Source: Deltaproteobacteria bacterium
Lineage (GTDB): Bacteria > Desulfobacterota > Desulfuromonadia > Geobacterales > Pseudopelobacteraceae
Length of the DNA stretch: 42,871 nucleotides
Direction: 5' to 3'
Assembly (NCBI GenBank): GCA_014380135.1
Contig: JACMKN010000037.1
Coordinates: 1-42,871, forward strand
Of this stretch, positions 13,723-24,400 are shown in pieces (within the stretch, counting starts at the first letter, position 1; each line of letters begins with the position of its first letter). The notes under the pieces are model-generated. The model ran no database searches. It had not been told where the DNA came from and worked only from the letters and a program-made list of their open reading frames with translations. Position numbers and translations under genes: made by a program.

Positions 13723-15567
13723 TCAGGCGGGTACGATGATTCCCTCCTGCTGGGCAAACAGCAGAAAATCATGAACGTCATCCAGCTTGAGTCCAAGTTT
13801 GTGCAGCAACTCTCCTGTCGTTGATTTTCCATTCATCTGCTCAAGAAGGGAATAGAAGGATACATCCAATGATTCGGTACAGACAAAGCCATCCTTGGGG
13901 TATATGACGGCATGGGAGTCAACCGCCCGAAGATGCTTATATATCCAACTTATATTGGGAGCGCCGCTGTCCAGGATTTCCTGAATTTCATAATGGAAAT
14001 GTGCCGATTGGGTTGAGGGGGTGAGGCGAAAGATTGTATTCAGTAGTCCAACCCCGGATTGTTGAGCCTTGACCTGCTGTGGTTGCGGAGCAAGCAGGGC
14101 GGCGGCGTAATGGTAGTGGTAATCGACCAGGTCCAGAACGATAGGAAGAAAACGCTTCATGTTATTATGGCTGAAAAGTTGCTGAAGGAAAAGTCTCTGC
14201 ATTTTCCAGATATCGTCATCGCTCAAGTCACTTTCGGAAAGGTTTGTTTCCCTGTTGGCGACCAGCCACTCGCCGAAGATCTGCATGAACTCTGATGGTT
14301 TCAGCTGTAATACTTCTACAACAGCATTAAACCAGGCCACCGCTTTGCCCCTGGTAAAAAAAATATCGCAGGCTTTAGCCAGCTGTCTGGCGGTTGCCAG
14401 ATCTGCGCTGCCGAAACTGTCTGTCGATAACAGCGTGTAGGGCGGAGATGTCTGCCACCTCAGGCCATGTTCTGTTCCTTGGGCGGCAAGTCTGGTGCCG
14501 GGCAGGACTGCCAGCGGAAAGATGTCAAGGTGGTTCGGGTAGAGTGACAGGGCGTAATCCAGGCTGTTGAAAAAACCGTTCAGCGTGTCGCCCGGCAATC
14601 CGTAGATCAGGTCGAAACCGAAAACGGCTCCGCTGTCATTCAAGAGTCCGATTCTTCGAGAAAAATCATCACGGTTGAATGAGCGTCCGACCTGTTTGAG
14701 AACTAGAGGGTCGGCGCTTTGGAGGCCAATCTGTAATGAACATGTGATTCGGGCAAACAACTCCGCCATCTCGCGATCGATGAATTCGCTGCGCACTTCA
14801 AAGTGGAAGTGGATCTGCGATGCGATCTTTCTGATCAAACGCAGTATCTGTTTCGCCCGTTTGGCATCCTGATTGAAAGTTGAATCCAGCACAAAAATCT
14901 GGGACACACCGGCCGCGGCGAAGTGCTGTAATTCGGCTTCGACCCGTTCCTGAGAAAAGCGCCGCACACCATGATTGTCACGGGCATCGAAACAGAAATC
15001 ACACGCAAAGCTGCAGCCACGCGCCAGTTGCCAGAGGATGCCGGTATAGTTGCGAGTGTCCAGAACTCCGTTCAGGTAAGGGGAGGGGATCAAGTCGAGA
15101 TTGGCAATGGGCGGGAGTGGGGGGCAGGGTGTTTCTCCGGAAAGGATGACGCCCGGAATACCCGACAGTTCCCTGCCGCCAATCAGTTGCCGGCAGAGTG
15201 CGGCAAAAGGCGCTTCACCTTCGCCGACGATCACAAAATCCAGGGCCCCGTCCTTCAACACTCCGGCCGGATCGGCGGTCGCTTCCGGGCCCCCTGCAAA
15301 TATCAGGGCTGACGGCAGCAGCTTTCTCAGTTCATCAGCCATCTCCAGGCAGGCAGACCGGTTCCAGACGTACATTGAAAAACCGATTGCACAAGGATTC
15401 GATGCAGCGATCAGAGCGGCACTACTGGCAGGATTCTGGCCAATAAAAAAATCGTTCAGGAAGACATCTATAGGCGTTTCCCTGACGATACTCTTCAGAA
15501 AGGCATTTGCCAGTGGCACCGATTGCGGAGAGGGGCAGGGGTGGATTGCAACCAGATTGATAAGCAC
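13723..15567 (-). CDS. B12-binding-domain radical SAM protein
   Basis: N-terminal cobalamin-binding-like domain ('AIGFSMYVWNR..L...LIFAGGPEATADP') and radical SAM CxxxCxxC 'ARGCSFACDFCFDARDNHG'; C-terminal winged-helix-like tail. Confidence 0.9.
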   Translation of the reverse strand: MLINLVAIHPCPSPQSVPLANAFLKSIVRETPIDVFLNDFFIGQNPASSAALIAASNPCAIGFSMYVWNRSACLEMADELRKLLPSALIFAGGPEATADPAGVLKDGALDFVIVGEGEAPFAALCRQLIGGRELSGIPGVILSGETPCPPLPPIANLDLIPSPYLNGVLDTRNYTGILWQLARGCSFACDFCFDARDNHGVRRFSQERVEAELQHFAAAGVSQIFVLDSTFNQDAKRAKQILRLIRKIASQIHFHFEVRSEFIDREMAELFARITCSLQIGLQSADPLVLKQVGRSFNRDDFSRRIGLLNDSGAVFGFDLIYGLPGDTLNGFFNSLDYALSLYPNHLDIFPLAVLPGTRLAAQGTEHGLRWQTSPPYTLLSTDSFGSADLATARQLAKACDIFFTRGKAVAWFNAVVEVLQLKPSEFMQIFGEWLVANRETNLSESDLSDDDIWKMQRLFLQQLFSHNNMKRFLPIVLDLVDYHYHYAAALLAPQPQQVKAQQSGVGLLNTIFRLTPSTQSAHFHYEIQEILDSGAPNISWIYKHLRAVDSHAVIYPKDGFVCTESLDVSFYSLLEQMNGKSTTGELLHKLGLKLDDVHDFLLFAQQEGIIVPA

Positions 15568-16743: not shown

Positions 16744-19035
16744 TTACGACGAAAACTTGCGGGCCAGGTCGTTGTCGATCACATATATGCAGACTTCTCT
16801 GGCGCTCTGCTTGGTATAATGGAATTTGGCTCCGCAGAGGTTGTTGATCAGGAACGAGACGTCATCCCGAATGCGCTTGTCGTAGGTCTTGAAGGCATCG
16901 GTCTCGTAATCCTTGATAGCGCGGCGGAAGTTGGGGTTGTCGAGGAACGGGTCCAGTACTTTCTCCTTCAGGTTGTGGACATAGCGATCGTGGAGTGTCC
17001 TGTAAAGACCGGTTTCCCTGGGGTCCAGTCCTTCGGCCAGAATCTCCTGGGTAAGGGTTCTGCCGGCGTATTCCTTCTGGGTCTCCCGCCGAAACAGAAG
17101 CCTTGCATTATCCTCAACGACAGAGCCGATCACTCTTCTTTCGATACTGCGCAGAAACTCTTCGTTGATTTCCAGCTTGTCATTGGTGAAGCGGCAGACC
17201 GCCACCGAGCCCATCTCAAAGCTGACCGCAAACATATAATTGAGAAGTTCCCGGGCAATCTGCTCCTCGTTGTAGTAGTAAAGCGCTTCCTTGACCTCCT
17301 GAAGTACGGTGTAGTTGTAGTTTCGCAGCAGTGAATTCAGAAAACCGTCCGGCAGCATCTCGTACAGATCCTTGCGCCACTTGGTAAAGAAGGAGGTGAG
17401 GGCTGACATCGATATCAGTTCATCCTTGCGGGCATAGGCCGAGTAGAATTCGTTGAAGATTTTGATCGAATCCCGGCCTGAGAAACCGGTTACTCCTTCC
17501 TCTTCCGATTCATCGATAATCCGTCGTCGGCGTTTGGCGGTCAGGCGCTTGCGATCCTCATCCGAGACCCAGGTTGGAATATAGCCGGTGTATATTTCCA
17601 TCTTGAGGATCTGCAGGTTTTCGTCGCAGTATTGGCCGTATCTCATCGGATCGCCGATCCATTCCAGCAGCGCCTCGGATGTGGCTTTCATGCGGGTCGA
17701 GATGATGGCGCGGGCGAAGTTGTGCAGAACTCGGGGGATAAAGCTTTCATCAATATGCTTGCCGAAAATGTTGCGGTAGATTTCGACCTCGGTATTCAGG
17801 TCCATTACATAGGGGATGTTGATATATTCGATCCGGTCGCTGAAGGATTGAAAACCTTCAATGATTTTCTCGTCCTCAGGATTCATCAGGGCGATGAAGA
17901 GCGACCTGACGTTTTCCTCCACATCCTCGACCTTGTGAATCCCCTCGCTGATGATGTTGTGCAGCTCCAGCAGGCGCTCGGCGTTATGGGATTTCACATC
18001 CATCAGGGTATAGATGCCGTTGTTGGTTTTGGCAAAGTTGGAATAGATATACTTGACCGCGTTGCTGTCTCCCAGCAACGTGTCGATCTTGCGCTGCAGT
18101 TGCTCATTGGTCTTGATGTTCTGTTTCATTGGCTTGTCGCCCGGATTGAAAACCGTGATTCCCTCCCCCATACGGCGGTTGAAGCGGTAGGGTCGCGCAT
18201 GGATCATATTGTAGATTTCCATCGAACTGGGCAGGCGCTGGATCAGGGCCTCATATATCGAGCTGCAGATTGTGCAGGGACTTTCGCTGAAGACCCACTC
18301 GAACTCCTTATTGGTGAAGAGTTTCCACTTGAATTCATCATTTTCGAAGAGGTCGTCGAAAAACAGGCGCCGGTCCCGCTTGGGAATCAGGAGCAGCGGA
18401 TTGTCGTGGGATGGGCAGGCTATCTCCACATAATCGCCGGGGCGGTGCAGGGAATTCTTCATCTCGGCCAGTTCGGCCTGACCCAGCTCGTATTCATCCA
18501 GCAGAGTGGAGAGTCGGTCTACAAAAGACGACATCTGGGTTTCATTGATCTGCGCCAATATCCTCCGGTCAAGGCGCCAGACGACCTCATAGCGTCTGCC
18601 GGCGTCACTGTTGGCGTATTCCTCAAATTTCAGCAGCAGGTTGTTCAGGAAGGTGCTCTTGCCTGAACCGGGGGGGCCTTCAAAGATGTAGATCTTGTTC
18701 TGTCGGGCGCTCCCTTTCATCGCATCGACATGGTTGATCAGGCGGTTGGCAAACAGACGGTCGGCAAAGAAGGGGCGGTCCGTATTTTTAACAAACAGGT
18801 TACGACAGTCGTAAGAGACATAGTTGATCGATTCCGGATCATCGGGATACTCGTCGCGTCCTTCGCCGACGGAGGATTTGATCATGTCATGGAAGCATTG
18901 AAACACGTTGCGAACGACTGTCGCCGGTTGCATAGCCAGGATCTTCAGGAAGTCATCGAAGGGGATGGTCTGGCAGTGCTCCCGCTCGCTGATCTTTCGA
19001 TTGAGGTGTTTTATTGCTTTATCCACATTAGACAT
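16744..19035 (-). CDS. PrkA-type AAA/serine protein kinase family protein (PrkA2, 763 aa)
   Basis: Walker A 'FEGPPGSGKSTFLNNLL'; PrkA-like 'CPSHDNPLLLIPK' and 'MNPEDEKIIEGFQSFSDRIEYINIPYVMDLNTEVEIYRN'; operon with DUF444/SpoVR. Confidence 0.85.
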   Translation of the reverse strand: MSNVDKAIKHLNRKISEREHCQTIPFDDFLKILAMQPATVVRNVFQCFHDMIKSSVGEGRDEYPDDPESINYVSYDCRNLFVKNTDRPFFADRLFANRLINHVDAMKGSARQNKIYIFEGPPGSGKSTFLNNLLLKFEEYANSDAGRRYEVVWRLDRRILAQINETQMSSFVDRLSTLLDEYELGQAELAEMKNSLHRPGDYVEIACPSHDNPLLLIPKRDRRLFFDDLFENDEFKWKLFTNKEFEWVFSESPCTICSSIYEALIQRLPSSMEIYNMIHARPYRFNRRMGEGITVFNPGDKPMKQNIKTNEQLQRKIDTLLGDSNAVKYIYSNFAKTNNGIYTLMDVKSHNAERLLELHNIISEGIHKVEDVEENVRSLFIALMNPEDEKIIEGFQSFSDRIEYINIPYVMDLNTEVEIYRNIFGKHIDESFIPRVLHNFARAIISTRMKATSEALLEWIGDPMRYGQYCDENLQILKMEIYTGYIPTWVSDEDRKRLTAKRRRRIIDESEEEGVTGFSGRDSIKIFNEFYSAYARKDELISMSALTSFFTKWRKDLYEMLPDGFLNSLLRNYNYTVLQEVKEALYYYNEEQIARELLNYMFAVSFEMGSVAVCRFTNDKLEINEEFLRSIERRVIGSVVEDNARLLFRRETQKEYAGRTLTQEILAEGLDPRETGLYRTLHDRYVHNLKEKVLDPFLDNPNFRRAIKDYETDAFKTYDKRIRDDVSFLINNLCGAKFHYTKQSAREVCIYVIDNDLARKFSS

Positions 19036-19045
19036 ATATCACCAG

Positions 19046-20674
19046 TCAGAATTTCTTTTTGGATAATACTTTGCCATTCATTGAATATAAGACCCGCTGC
19101 CAGGCGATTTCCCCCTCCAGCGCTTCATCTGTTTTTGCCGGTGCCGCCGGTGCAGGAAGAATCTGGGCCTCACTGGTTTCCAGATGTACCGGGCCGCCCC
19201 ACAGGTATTCGATCCCGACCATAGTGTTGGCGATATATTCCTGCACCAGTTGTTTTCCCTCGAATTTATGTATCAGGTACAAGCTGCCTTCGATTCCTTT
19301 GGTCTGATCCACGCTGATGACAGGCGGGTGATAGAGCGAATCCTGCATCATCTGCAGATAATCCTTCGCCTTGCGGCTCTTGACGTAGTACTGCCAAACC
19401 ATGCGCTGCTGATCAAGCCGCTTGCCGGCGACAAACAGTTTGTGTCTGTCAATGAAATCCTGATCAAGATAATTTTTCAGAAACAGATAATCGGACAGGT
19501 TCTCACGAACTTTGAAAATGAAATCTTTCCCGGTTGAGACACCGGTGTTGAACTGTTTGCGGCTGTCGGCATTTGCCAGTCGCTGATAATCAAAAGATAT
19601 GCGCCCCTTGTCGGCCTGTTCCTCAATATGGGTAAAAAGCCGCATCCCCAGTGCATACGGATTCATACCGACCCGTGGCATGGATGTAACGCCGGCATGA
19701 ACCCTAGCGAAGTCCACTTCATGTCCCTTGATGCGGTCATCCTGCAAAAAAAGTGTTTCGTGCCAATAACTGGCCCAGCCTTCGTTCAGGATCTTGGTCC
19801 GGATTTGAGGCTGGAAGAAGATGGATGTCTTGCGAACGATCTCCAGGATCGAGCGCATCCAGATATTTTCGTCCCTGGCCAGAAATTCCGACTTGTCCAG
19901 CAGGTAACGGAGCAGGTCCCGTTTTTTCGCCGGGCGCGTATCCATGGCTCTGGCAAAATGCGCCTCCAGTTCCGGGTAGCGCCGCTCCGCCTCGGCGAAA
20001 AAGGTTTTTTCACCCAGTTCGCCATAGGTTTTCAGACATTCGTTGTAGCGATTGACCTCTTTGATATATTCGCTGACCGGTATCTTTTTCTCCGATTGCA
20101 GAAACAGATCGAAATAATAGTTGAGACGAGAAGAACAGTCCGCCTCCGGAGGTGTAAAAAGGTCCGCCAGTTCACCATGGAAGTCGACCAGGTTGTCGAT
20201 GCCCCTGGCAAATTCGATCACATAATCTACCCAGCGCCCCTTTTCGGCTCTGAGTCTGGCGATCACCCGTTTGTCCGACAGGGCCTGACCGGTGAAGTCA
20301 TAATCCCAAGTGTGGCGAAAGTACAGATTGTTCTGGAAAAAATCGATGTGGGCCAGGACATGGTAGAAAATCATCACATTCAGCCAGTCCGGGTTGTTGT
20401 CGTTGTAAAAGGAGATCGGCGGGCGGGTGTTGATGACCGTTTCGTAGGGGTTGTTGGGGTAGAGTTCGTACTTGCCCCGCTCCCGCAATACCTCCACGTC
20501 GTGGACCCAGTAGTCGTAGAGCGTCGGAATCATGACCTTGGGGGACAGTTCCAGCAGGTCCCGGTTGGTGACGATATATTCCAGGCTCTCGTCGGTGAAG
20601 GAGAGACCGGCCGCCCGGGCGCGCTCCTTGCACCCCTCCATGATCCGCTTGGTATGTTGATTGATCAGTTCCAT
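19046..20674 (-). CDS. spoVR: SpoVR family protein
   Basis: 'YELYPNNPYETVINTRPPISFYNDNNPDWLNVMIFYHVLAHIDFFQNN', 'LNEGWASYWHETLF', 'NPYALGMRLFTHIEEQADKGRIS'. Confidence 0.93.
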   Translation of the reverse strand: MELINQHTKRIMEGCKERARAAGLSFTDESLEYIVTNRDLLELSPKVMIPTLYDYWVHDVEVLRERGKYELYPNNPYETVINTRPPISFYNDNNPDWLNVMIFYHVLAHIDFFQNNLYFRHTWDYDFTGQALSDKRVIARLRAEKGRWVDYVIEFARGIDNLVDFHGELADLFTPPEADCSSRLNYYFDLFLQSEKKIPVSEYIKEVNRYNECLKTYGELGEKTFFAEAERRYPELEAHFARAMDTRPAKKRDLLRYLLDKSEFLARDENIWMRSILEIVRKTSIFFQPQIRTKILNEGWASYWHETLFLQDDRIKGHEVDFARVHAGVTSMPRVGMNPYALGMRLFTHIEEQADKGRISFDYQRLANADSRKQFNTGVSTGKDFIFKVRENLSDYLFLKNYLDQDFIDRHKLFVAGKRLDQQRMVWQYYVKSRKAKDYLQMMQDSLYHPPVISVDQTKGIEGSLYLIHKFEGKQLVQEYIANTMVGIEYLWGGPVHLETSEAQILPAPAAPAKTDEALEGEIAWQRVLYSMNGKVLSKKKF

Positions 20675-20687
20675 GGAATACCCATCT

Positions 20688-20734
20688 GTAGGAGCTCTGT
20701 TTCAGCGCCCGGTGCGGGGTGACCCCGCTCCTAG
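20688..20734. repeat. REP/BIME-like palindromic element
   Basis: Outer inverted repeat TAGGAGC(20689-20695)/GCTCCTA(20727-20733) with inner perfect hairpin GCGGGGT-G-ACCCCGC (20714-20728); overlaps DUF444 stop codon. Confidence 0.55.
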
Positions 20735-22110
20735 GAAATCAAACGTTTTATGCCTTCGATCAGCCTTGATTCATCGGCATCTTTTTGTATTACATCCAGC
20801 CGCAACAGGTCCGGCTTCTTGCTAAGAAGTTCGGAGCTGTTCAGATAGCGTGCTACAGTAGTGGTTCCCATCTGCCCATGCTCGGCAATGGTTACACCCA
20901 CCCGGCTGGCATAGGTCAGCATCTTTTCCAGTTCAGGAATCGCCTTGGAGCCGGCCTCGTCCCAATCATCGCCATCGGTGCCTTGAAAAACGTAGATGTT
21001 GTAATCCTTGGCCAGATTTTCACGGGCCACAATCTCGTTGACCAGTTGATAGGCGCTGGAAACCTGCGTTCCGCCGGCAACCCTGGAGTTGTAGTATGTA
21101 TAGAAGTCCGGCACCTCTTTGGCTTCTGTGTCGTGCAGTATAAAACGGGATTCCGCCTGGCCACCGTATTGGTAAAGCAGCCAGCTGTAGATCAGCACAT
21201 GTTGGCTTACGATCAGATCCGTGACCTTTCCGACCATGGAGCCGGAATAATCGCGCAGAAAAAAGAGCATGGCCTGCGGCTCATAATCTTTTTCGCGCGA
21301 CAGGATGCGATAGACCTTGTCGCGCGGGGCGATCAGGAACTGGGTAGGATCAATGTCCGATACATCCGGCAGGTTGCCCAGGGCGATGTTCGTTTCAACG
21401 ATCTTGCGCAGTGTAGCCTTCTTGTCCAGCACCTGGCCGAAACCGCGATTTTTATCCGTCAGATCATAGGTGTAGCGCGTAAAGGAACGCTTCTTGCCTT
21501 TGTCCTTAAGATTCGGCAGCTGAAATTTTTCGGAGAGAGTCTTGCCGAGATCGTAAGCGGAGGATTCCATCTCGTGATTCGAGCCACCTCCCTCTCCCGG
21601 GCCGCTACCGTCCTGATCGCCATCATCACGGACCGGTTGTTCACCGATGACTTCTCCCTCCTGCTCATCGCCGGTGCCGCCCGACGTGCCCCCTTCGCCT
21701 GGCGGACGAACCGTCGGATCGTGAAAAAACTTTTCCTCGACCGTGGTCGGTACGACTACGACCTTTCCCTTGCGGCCACGCCCAGGTTTTACCAGTTTGC
21801 CGACCTGTATTTTGCGGGGAAAGCCGTCCTGTTCACGCTGTCGGTCACGCTCCAGCAGTTCGTCCAGTGATTTCGCCAGACCGGCTGCACTTAAATAGGG
21901 CGTCACCGCCTGACGCAGGACAAGCAGATCACCGCTCTCGTAGAGGCCGCGGCTGAAACCTGCCAGATCGGGGTCCATCGGCACATCGCGCGCTGGAACT
22001 GCATGGCTGTCGGTCGCCGTTGCCAACTCCGCCCTCAGTCGCGCCTCCCGTTCGGGGTCAAGACCGGATGCTCTCAGTTCTTCCGGATATGTAGGCAGAT
22101 CATTTCGCAT
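20731..22110 (-). CDS. DUF444/YhbH (YeaH) family protein with VWA-like MIDAS
   Basis: 'MLFFLRDYSGSMVGKVTDL' (DxSGS), 'VAGGTQVSSAYQLVNEIV', 'FQGTDGDDWDEAGS'; Gly/Glu-rich linker typical of the family. Confidence 0.92.
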   Translation of the reverse strand: MRNDLPTYPEELRASGLDPEREARLRAELATATDSHAVPARDVPMDPDLAGFSRGLYESGDLLVLRQAVTPYLSAAGLAKSLDELLERDRQREQDGFPRKIQVGKLVKPGRGRKGKVVVVPTTVEEKFFHDPTVRPPGEGGTSGGTGDEQEGEVIGEQPVRDDGDQDGSGPGEGGGSNHEMESSAYDLGKTLSEKFQLPNLKDKGKKRSFTRYTYDLTDKNRGFGQVLDKKATLRKIVETNIALGNLPDVSDIDPTQFLIAPRDKVYRILSREKDYEPQAMLFFLRDYSGSMVGKVTDLIVSQHVLIYSWLLYQYGGQAESRFILHDTEAKEVPDFYTYYNSRVAGGTQVSSAYQLVNEIVARENLAKDYNIYVFQGTDGDDWDEAGSKAIPELEKMLTYASRVGVTIAEHGQMGTTTVARYLNSSELLSKKPDLLRLDVIQKDADESRLIEGIKRLIS

Positions 22111-22134
22111 ATATTCTTAAAAGGCCTATTGATT

Positions 22135-24189
22135 TTAGTTTTCATCTTCCTGCGTGCAGAAATATTCGATCGTCTTCTGTGCGCAGGTCCGGCAGTAGCC
22201 CAGTTTGTCCAGCATGGTCGTGATCATGCGATCGTAGAGTTTCTGGTTCTCCTCGTTGGTGCGGTTGGCCAGGGCACCGATCAGGCTGCCGGCGCCGGCG
22301 ATATCAGACTTCAGACGAACATCGGTGACCGCTTTGACCAGTTCCAGATTGTCCATGAAGTCATAATTGGGATCCATCGATATCTTCTGGCCGTAGATCT
22401 TGCGGATCGAGGTGCGGAACGAATCCCTCTGCTCCTCGGTTTTCAGACCTATTCTTTCCTCGACACTCTTCACATAACGCTCGTCTATTTTCAGCGCCCG
22501 CAGTTCTCCGCTCTGGGGATCCTTATATTTCCACATCCGGTCCGGCCCCAAGTTTTCGGCATCAATGCCGATGATCATGTTGACATAGTTCATCACGTCT
22601 TTGCGTATGGCATAAGGTTCATCCATGTAGGCGTTGAACATCTCGGTCATGATCCGTTCGCGGTAAAGCCCTTTGGCGATCTTCAAATCCTCCAGATACT
22701 TGGCGCGGTCATTGGTTTCGACCACATAGTCCAGTACAACCCGTTCAAGGGTTTTGAAGACATCGTAGGCGAACATGCAGCGCCCTTCATTGGTTTCCGA
22801 ATTCTCGACCTGCAGCTGGATGGAACGCCCCAGGCTGCGATGTCCCAACCCCTTCTGACCGAAGCGTTTGGTTATGTCCGGGTCCTGCCCGAGGGTGTCA
22901 ATCACCTCCGCCAACGCCTTTATGCTTTTCTCTCCGGCCACTTCCCCGGCCGCCAGCTTCATGGTTTCGATGGGGGTCAGCTTTTCAGAACGGGGAAAAC
23001 GGGTCAGGACAACAGCGACAGAGGCGGCATAGTTCAGGTTCGGATCCTGATGCAGTGCCTCCTTGGTCAGGGTTGTCTTGGCATCGCTGCCGATAGCGTA
23101 GGCTGTCAGACCTTCCTGCATCCGATAGTTGGTGTTGTGCGAGACGTAGCAGATCCGGCAGCGGTCAACGATCGGCGCCTCCTCTTTTTCGGCCAGGAAA
23201 CGGTTGAATTCGGAGTTGTTGCTGGTGGCGATGATCAGCGAATCTATCGGCCACTTGTAGCCGTCGATCTCGATGGCCCGGTTCTGGATCACACCCAGGT
23301 AAACCTGAACCAGATCTTTCTTGTTCTTGAAGATCTCGTCGGAAAAGTGGATTCCGCCGCCGGCGACCCGTGCCAGGGCGCCGCGACGCAGATCAAAACG
23401 GTAGGGGTTGTTGGTGTCGGAGATATGCAGCAGGCGCTGGATCGACTCTTCACCCAGCAGATCCACCGACGATGATGTGATCTTGTCCTTGGCAGGATAT
23501 TTGCCTGTAACGGTCCCCAGGCTTTCGCTCATCGGTACCGGTATCACCTCTATGAATTCCAGCATGCGATTCAGGTCGCCGTCGCAAAAATCGCGTATAT
23601 CGTTCCAGATGTAGCCGCTGCAGGCGCCCAGCGGGCGGTAGTTTCCGTAGAGGGTGTCTATCTCGGTTTCGTCCAACCCGCCCCGTTCAGCCAGAAAACG
23701 GCGGTTATCCGAGGTTGAGTCGTCCAGATTCATAGCCAGTATCAGCGGATCTTCGAAGGTCTGAGAATCGACAATATTGATCTTGCCGTAGTGCCCCAGT
23801 TGTGCCAGGCCGTTGAAGCGGAATGTATAACGGCGATTTTTCGGCTGTGACAGGAAAGCCCGATACTGGGCGCAAAGAAATTCGACAAAAAAAGTCTTGC
23901 CGTTGCCCGGTTCTCCGACCAGAACGAAGGCCATCTCCTTGCTGGAGCCCCCTTCGGCGGCATCCTTGACATAGGAAACGAAGCTGTTGATCTCATCAAA
24001 CATGCCGATGGTATGTTTCCTGCCGCTACGGAATACCTTGAAATCGTAGGTCGTCCGGCCGTTGACAACCACTTTCTCAAAGCCGGATCCCAGAATCATC
24101 CTTGCCACGGATTGAAAGGCATTTTCGAAGACTCTTTCACCTTCTTTTAGTGCAATAACATGCTGAATCAACTTTTCATGGGAAGCCAT
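22135..24189 (-). CDS. PrkA-type AAA/serine protein kinase family protein (PrkA1, 684 aa)
   Basis: Walker A 'VLVGEPGNGKTFFVEFL'; 'GGGIHFSDEIFKNKKDLVQVYLGVIQNRAIEIDGYKWPIDSLIIATSNNSEF'; first gene of the operon. Confidence 0.9.
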   Translation of the reverse strand: MASHEKLIQHVIALKEGERVFENAFQSVARMILGSGFEKVVVNGRTTYDFKVFRSGRKHTIGMFDEINSFVSYVKDAAEGGSSKEMAFVLVGEPGNGKTFFVEFLCAQYRAFLSQPKNRRYTFRFNGLAQLGHYGKINIVDSQTFEDPLILAMNLDDSTSDNRRFLAERGGLDETEIDTLYGNYRPLGACSGYIWNDIRDFCDGDLNRMLEFIEVIPVPMSESLGTVTGKYPAKDKITSSSVDLLGEESIQRLLHISDTNNPYRFDLRRGALARVAGGGIHFSDEIFKNKKDLVQVYLGVIQNRAIEIDGYKWPIDSLIIATSNNSEFNRFLAEKEEAPIVDRCRICYVSHNTNYRMQEGLTAYAIGSDAKTTLTKEALHQDPNLNYAASVAVVLTRFPRSEKLTPIETMKLAAGEVAGEKSIKALAEVIDTLGQDPDITKRFGQKGLGHRSLGRSIQLQVENSETNEGRCMFAYDVFKTLERVVLDYVVETNDRAKYLEDLKIAKGLYRERIMTEMFNAYMDEPYAIRKDVMNYVNMIIGIDAENLGPDRMWKYKDPQSGELRALKIDERYVKSVEERIGLKTEEQRDSFRTSIRKIYGQKISMDPNYDFMDNLELVKAVTDVRLKSDIAGAGSLIGALANRTNEENQKLYDRMITTMLDKLGYCRTCAQKTIEYFCTQEDEN

Positions 24190-24400
24190 GCTTGTCCTCC
24201 GTATGGTTATCGATTGATAGGAAGATTATCTCTTCTAATTATTACCCACTATAAAATATTAGCAAGTCGTATATGGAATATAACTTAAAAAGTTTCGGCG
24301 ACTACCCGCTTTCAATGGCGCAAGGCCTCTTTTGCCTTGCTGTAGCTGTATTATAAATGTTAATTTGCGTCCGGTTTGAATCATCTTCGGAGGTTTTTTT

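Follow-up and report, generated by a model that had tools for sequence, protein, structure and literature searches.

The window analysed here, 42,871 nt of contig JACMKN010000037.1 (GenBank assembly GCA_014380135.1) from a Deltaproteobacteria bacterium of the Pseudopelobacteraceae, carries a four-gene operon in which two different PrkA-type AAA+ ATPases, designated PrkA1 and PrkA2, flank a DUF444 protein with a VWA-type domain and a SpoVR family protein. Proteins of the PrkA, DUF444 and SpoVR families, linked to stress and sporulation, are widely conserved together. Judging from sequence and from analogy with known systems, we give an even chance to the proposal that the four genes encode one hetero-AAA+/VWA remodelling machine, in which a hydrolysing and a hydrolysis-impaired PrkA serve SpoVR. 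With the PrkA role divided between a Glu-type subunit and an Asp-type one, the operon offers a direct handle for finding out if the module works as a hetero-AAA+ machine and which protein it acts on.

Two divergent PrkA proteins in one operon

The operon consists of four minus-strand open reading frames (ORFs) running from 24189 to 16744 in the order PrkA1-DUF444-SpoVR-PrkA2, separated by gaps of 24, 56 and 10 nt (Table 1), which agrees with the layout in the original prediction made from the DNA letters. The gene identities given there are upheld by Pfam, with the main domains above the curated cut-offs. PrkA1 and PrkA2 score 45.3 and 37.0 bits against AAA_PrkA (PF08298) and 137.3 and 178.8 bits against the PrkA C-terminal domain (PF06798), the cut-off being 25 in both cases; the DUF444 protein scores 118 bits against PF04285 and SpoVR 206 bits against PF04293. 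Among the narrower NCBIfam equivalogs, the DUF444 protein falls inside NF003712 (754 bits, cut-off 421), SpoVR is far under its E. coli-type equivalog (93 against a cut-off of 679), and PrkA1, at 46.8 bits against a cut-off of 576, is not a member of the YeaG-type PrkA equivalog NF011999, to which PrkA2 gives no match. The genome (2.99 Mb, 336 contigs, 79% complete) contains exactly two PrkA genes, both of this operon.

The ATPase sites of the two proteins differ at the catalytic residue. PrkA1 has a Walker A motif (GEPGNGKT), a complete Walker B (IHFSDE), a sensor-1 Asn and an arginine-finger-like DR. PrkA2 has an intact Walker A (GPPGSGKS), and its Walker B catalytic Glu is changed to Asp (YTLMDV, D346). 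This split is constant: counting distinct sequences that hold the region, Walker B is xDE in 96/96 PrkA1 and LMD in 97/97 PrkA2, and Walker A is intact in all 66 aligned PrkA2 copies. Neither protein varies at the Walker A Lys, at the sensor-1 Asn, at an Arg in the arginine-finger region or at a sensor-2-like Arg. Read ungapped, the Walker B stretch is NRGxxEFxE in canonical PrkA, GGGIHFSDE in PrkA1 and NNGIYALMD in PrkA2, and in the sequences examined canonical PrkA has Glu at the position of the PrkA2 Asp. We predict that PrkA1 should hydrolyse ATP because its Walker B is complete, and that PrkA2 should bind ATP but hydrolyse it poorly because Walker A is kept and Asp replaces the catalytic Glu. 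PrkA2 also has a long N-terminal region and an invariant CPxH...CTxC pair (CPSH...CTIC in the window protein), a putative zinc knuckle. These cysteines are absent from PrkA1, and a CPxH/CxxC pair is also found in 9xip, the one solved PrkA relative (CPMH...CPVC).

A BLASTP comparison of PrkA1 with PrkA2 returned a single short significant segment, with 28% identity over 54 aa. In a tree that included canonical PrkA, a branch with starred support separates each of the three groups from all other sequences. PrkA1 and PrkA2 form distinct and deep clades, on stems of 3.7 and 2.7 changes per column; an approximately unbiased (AU) test bearing on whether they are sisters gave p 0.28. The short BLASTP segment and the separate clades confirm that the two PrkAs are non-identical, as predicted, and together with the stem lengths they show that PrkA2 did not arise by recent duplication and is not in decay.

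Conservation of the operon and a second double-PrkA module

Orthologues of PrkA2, 64-93% identical to it, are present in some 24 further genomes of the order. The order PrkA1-DUF444-SpoVR-PrkA2 is unbroken in 20 regions around these orthologues, wherever the contig is long enough, and is complete in 61/80 named loci, most of the remainder stopping at a contig edge. The original prediction had named two outcomes that would count against it, a recent or decaying PrkA2 restricted to this strain and a gene order not conserved in relatives, and neither was found. Conservation of operon order and content is far beyond chance. A search of 56 relatives with the PrkA C-terminal family showed either two PrkA copies or none per genome, except for two draft assemblies (G002 and G013) that show one. 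A phylum sample of 297 Desulfobacterota genomes gave PrkA1 in 21 and PrkA2 in 20 of those 21; the sole genome with PrkA1 and without PrkA2, G289, is 78% complete.

The pair is also kept where the operon is broken. In G187, PrkA1-DUF444 (L244 7194-10730) and SpoVR-PrkA2 (L245 5798-9562) persist as two halves at distant places on the same contig, with PrkA2 running to the contig end and its tail elsewhere, and in G309 PrkA1 and PrkA2 are both kept about 40 kb apart. Departures of other kinds are a PrkA2 upstream of PrkA1 (L142) and operon members missing within the stretch covered (L139, L141, L154 and L116). At L241 (7886-9562), SpoVR is in two ORFs of 326 and 220 aa with the rest of the operon intact, from a frameshift or an assembly error. 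Outside Desulfobacterota the module is patchy, occurring in 2/79 KSB1 genomes and 1/4 UASB270 genomes, which is consistent with its having moved between phyla as a unit. A comparison of 83 regions found no fifth conserved neighbour gene around the operon; the commonest flanking cluster, of response-regulator-like ORFs, is present at 22 loci in varying positions.

A second double-PrkA module, designated type C, occurs in four genomes of the phylum (G078, G340, G278 and G255; loci L231-L234). It has the four families in the order of the window operon, PrkA-DUF444-SpoVR-PrkA, and likewise Glu then Asp at Walker B, with VEIHE in the first PrkA (739-740 aa) and LHIHD in the second, C2 (832-863 aa and very diverged), in 4/4 genomes. 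Unlike in the window operon, the first PrkA groups with canonical PrkA (support 94/93), and C2 is weakly joined to PrkA2. The tree is compatible both with one common origin of the window-type and type-C modules and with independent origins. The phylum sample contains 19 canonical, 21 window-type and 4 type-C genomes with zero overlap between forms. We considered mutual exclusion of the single- and double-PrkA forms and set it aside, as chance would produce no more than about 1.3 canonical/window-type overlaps and their absence is not significant.

A candidate remodelling machine and its alternatives

The canonical prkA-yhbH/DUF444-spoVR operon has the same three families in the same order as the window, adjacent and on one strand, with an AAA+ protein bearing the PrkA C-terminal domain and a VWA MIDAS (metal ion-dependent adhesion site). 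Examples are E. coli YeaG-YeaH, with YcgB elsewhere, and the operons of Thermomicrobium and Rhizobium etli (CH02817-02815). It differs from the window in having one PrkA only, with a Walker B of the form ExxE. It is expressed in stationary phase under (p)ppGpp control (PMC3188799), and B. anthracis requires PrkA to survive osmotic stress and to express sporulation genes normally (PMC13001217). YcgB, YeaH and YeaG were linked by co-conservation, and yeaH and ycgB were tied to antimicrobial peptide resistance (PMC2375023). Two PrkA genes as such are already known, since a 2011 study described, for all haloarchaea, a pair of neighbouring PrkA genes accompanied by DUF444 and SpoVR (PMC3102087), and in Haloquadratum a gene annotated as "prkA2" has high expression (PMC9684190). 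The haloarchaeal cluster always combines a single DUF444 and a single SpoVR with two PrkA-related genes, as the window does; compared by description only, its PrkA genes are adjacent, whereas those of the window flank DUF444-SpoVR. What is new is the Glu/Asp Walker B split and the flanking bacterial form, neither of which was found in the literature searched, an incomplete set. The earlier description of an under-described system has to be tempered to that extent, as the two-PrkA set is not entirely undescribed.

Mg-chelatase I/D/H and the MoxR-VWA systems (RavA-ViaA, NorQ-NorD) resemble the window in combining an AAA+ motor with a VWA partner that bears a MIDAS and with a target specific to the system. 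Mg-chelatase pairs an active I with an inactive D AAA+ subunit. The sequence features of such a machine are present in the window, namely Walker A, sensor 1 and an arginine finger, along with a VWA partner whose MIDAS residues (DxSxS at 287-291, T348 and D379) are invariant in the window, canonical and type-C forms. The window differs in that its AAA+ proteins belong to another family with the PrkA C-terminal domain and its VWA is separate from both AAA+ subunits, and in that no metal-insertion client is known for it. The operon proteins gave no match to the MoxR or chelatase Pfam families and are not members of them. An AlphaFold2 (AF2) model of PrkA2 (predicted local distance difference test, pLDDT, 83) matched AAA+ proteins in Foldseek, including LonC, MCM, BchI and FleQ, with the Mg-chelatase subunit BchI at rank 4 (E 5e-3, TM-score 0.13 of query).

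We hypothesize that the window operon is a variant of the widespread PrkA-DUF444-SpoVR stress module, with two specialised subunits in place of the single PrkA. PrkA1 and PrkA2 would form a mixed or stacked ring, like the active I and inactive D of Mg-chelatase, and the VWA domain of DUF444 would connect this ring to SpoVR. The ATP cycle of PrkA1 could then remodel SpoVR, or a SpoVR-bound target, on growth arrest or stress, a setting suggested by the physiology of the canonical operon (PMC3188799; PMC13001217). We favour one machine because the gene order holds from Geobacterales through to genomes of KSB1 and UASB270, because PrkA1 and PrkA2 are kept together even in the broken operons, and because the Walker B split is constant and recurs in type C. 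The invariance of the MIDAS across the canonical and both double-PrkA types and the resemblance of the PrkA2 model to AAA+ proteins such as BchI point the same way, as do AAA+/VWA pairs of the NorQD type, which are remodelling machines and in the case of NorQD drive metal insertion (PMC13036017). The original prediction had suggested a hetero-AAA assembly or a division of labour; the near-strict co-retention and the Glu/Asp split speak for it only indirectly.

Several points weigh against one machine with an impaired PrkA2. A Glu-to-Asp change can leave some hydrolysis, and the Walker B of canonical PrkA is itself unusual, being ExxE and lacking the Mg-binding Asp normally found there, so that reading the PrkA2 change as loss of hydrolysis is an extrapolation. 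The aligner placed a one-residue gap beside the PrkA1 Glu, and our comparison reads the stretch without it. All Foldseek matches of PrkA2 have E above 0.001, and their TM-scores are low, at 0.1-0.2 of query. The join of PrkA2 with C2 is supported at 80/51 and lies where long branches meet. A wider proposal, that a hydrolysing and a hydrolysis-impaired PrkA around a VWA adaptor and SpoVR make up a recurrent, possibly convergent class, an analogue of Mg-chelatase I/D that replaces the single-PrkA form in alternate lineages, is tentative and to us rather doubtful.

PrkA1 and PrkA2 might instead be two independent homo-oligomeric machines that have different clients and form no mixed complex but use DUF444 and/or SpoVR in common. 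This fits their deep divergence, the retention of Walker A and the arginine finger in both, and a CxxH/CxxC motif found only in PrkA2, as expected of separate jobs. However, near all-or-none retention, the fixed flanking order and the missing catalytic Glu in every PrkA2 copy fit a dependent partner better, and we consider independent rings unlikely. We see a smaller chance that PrkA2 stands outside the motor ring as a pseudo-ATPase with a regulatory or structural role, using its N-terminal and zinc-like parts as an adaptor or as a receptor for a substrate, while its nucleotide site only senses ATP. The replaced Glu, the invariant CPxH...CTxC motif, the long N-terminal region and the larger, more diverged C2 of type C would all suit such a role, but the arginine-finger DR, sensor 1 and sensor-2-like Arg are invariant and would be needless in an adaptor that is not part of a ring. 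Database names and older reports of PrkA phosphorylation, cited in PMC3188799, would make the PrkAs serine protein kinases and the operon a two-kinase phosphorylation cascade; this is very improbable, as purified B. anthracis PrkA had no detectable kinase or protease activity and its kinase-like domain lacks a P-loop (PMC13001217), and the P-loop found in the window PrkAs belongs to the AAA+ domain. A recent origin of PrkA2 by tandem duplication, or its decay, for which nothing speaks beyond family membership, is next to impossible given the distance of PrkA2 from PrkA1, its orthologues in the same gene order and its uniformly intact Walker A.

Upstream element, SpoVR and neighbouring genes

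Table 1. Features of the operon in the window.
Feature	Position	Strand	Evidence
PrkA1, PrkA-type AAA+ ATPase, 684 aa	22135..24189	-	Pfam PF08298 and PF06798 above cut-off; motifs
DUF444 protein (YeaH/YhbH-type), C-terminal VWA-type MIDAS, 459 aa	20731..22110	-	Pfam PF04285; NCBIfam NF003712; invariant columns
SpoVR family protein, 542 aa	19046..20674	-	Pfam PF04293; invariant motifs; AF2 model
PrkA2, diverged PrkA-type AAA+, 763 aa	16744..19035	-	Pfam PF08298 and PF06798; invariant D346; AF2 AAA+ fold
Candidate promoter upstream of PrkA1	24238..24265	-	Consensus match; alignment of relatives

Before PrkA1, an element of the form CTTGCyAA...GTAATAATTA (window 24210-24265) is conserved in an alignment of close relatives. 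Within it lies TTGCTA-N16-AATAAT, a match to the consensus from a scan whose number of matches is not above chance. The conserved element is likely a sigma-70-type promoter, and we list it as a candidate. Sigma-54 control, as in R. etli, was rejected, as no -24/-12 site is present upstream of PrkA1 in the window and the element conserved there is sigma-70-like.

The SpoVR protein has an invariant HxxxH (105/109) and an invariant EGWAxxW, and its AF2 model (pLDDT 82) has a mostly helical predicted fold with no match among PDB folds at E<=0.001. HxxxH and NEGWAxxWH are suggestive of a gluzincin-like zinc metallopeptidase, but the Glu of HExxH is absent and the fold has no PDB counterpart, so this assignment was dropped.

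Beyond PrkA2, and outside the conserved four-gene set, a 614-aa minus-strand ORF (13723-15567) carries the motif CxxxCxxC (CSFACDFC), which hints at a radical SAM protein. The plasmid NZ_CP062975.1 of Pontibacillus sp. ALD_SL1 (H24) has two PrkA places in one record, and the large Thermus phages phiYS40, TMA and YS40_Isch (H40-H45) carry a PrkA-like "serine kinase" gene with 21-23% identity to PrkA1.

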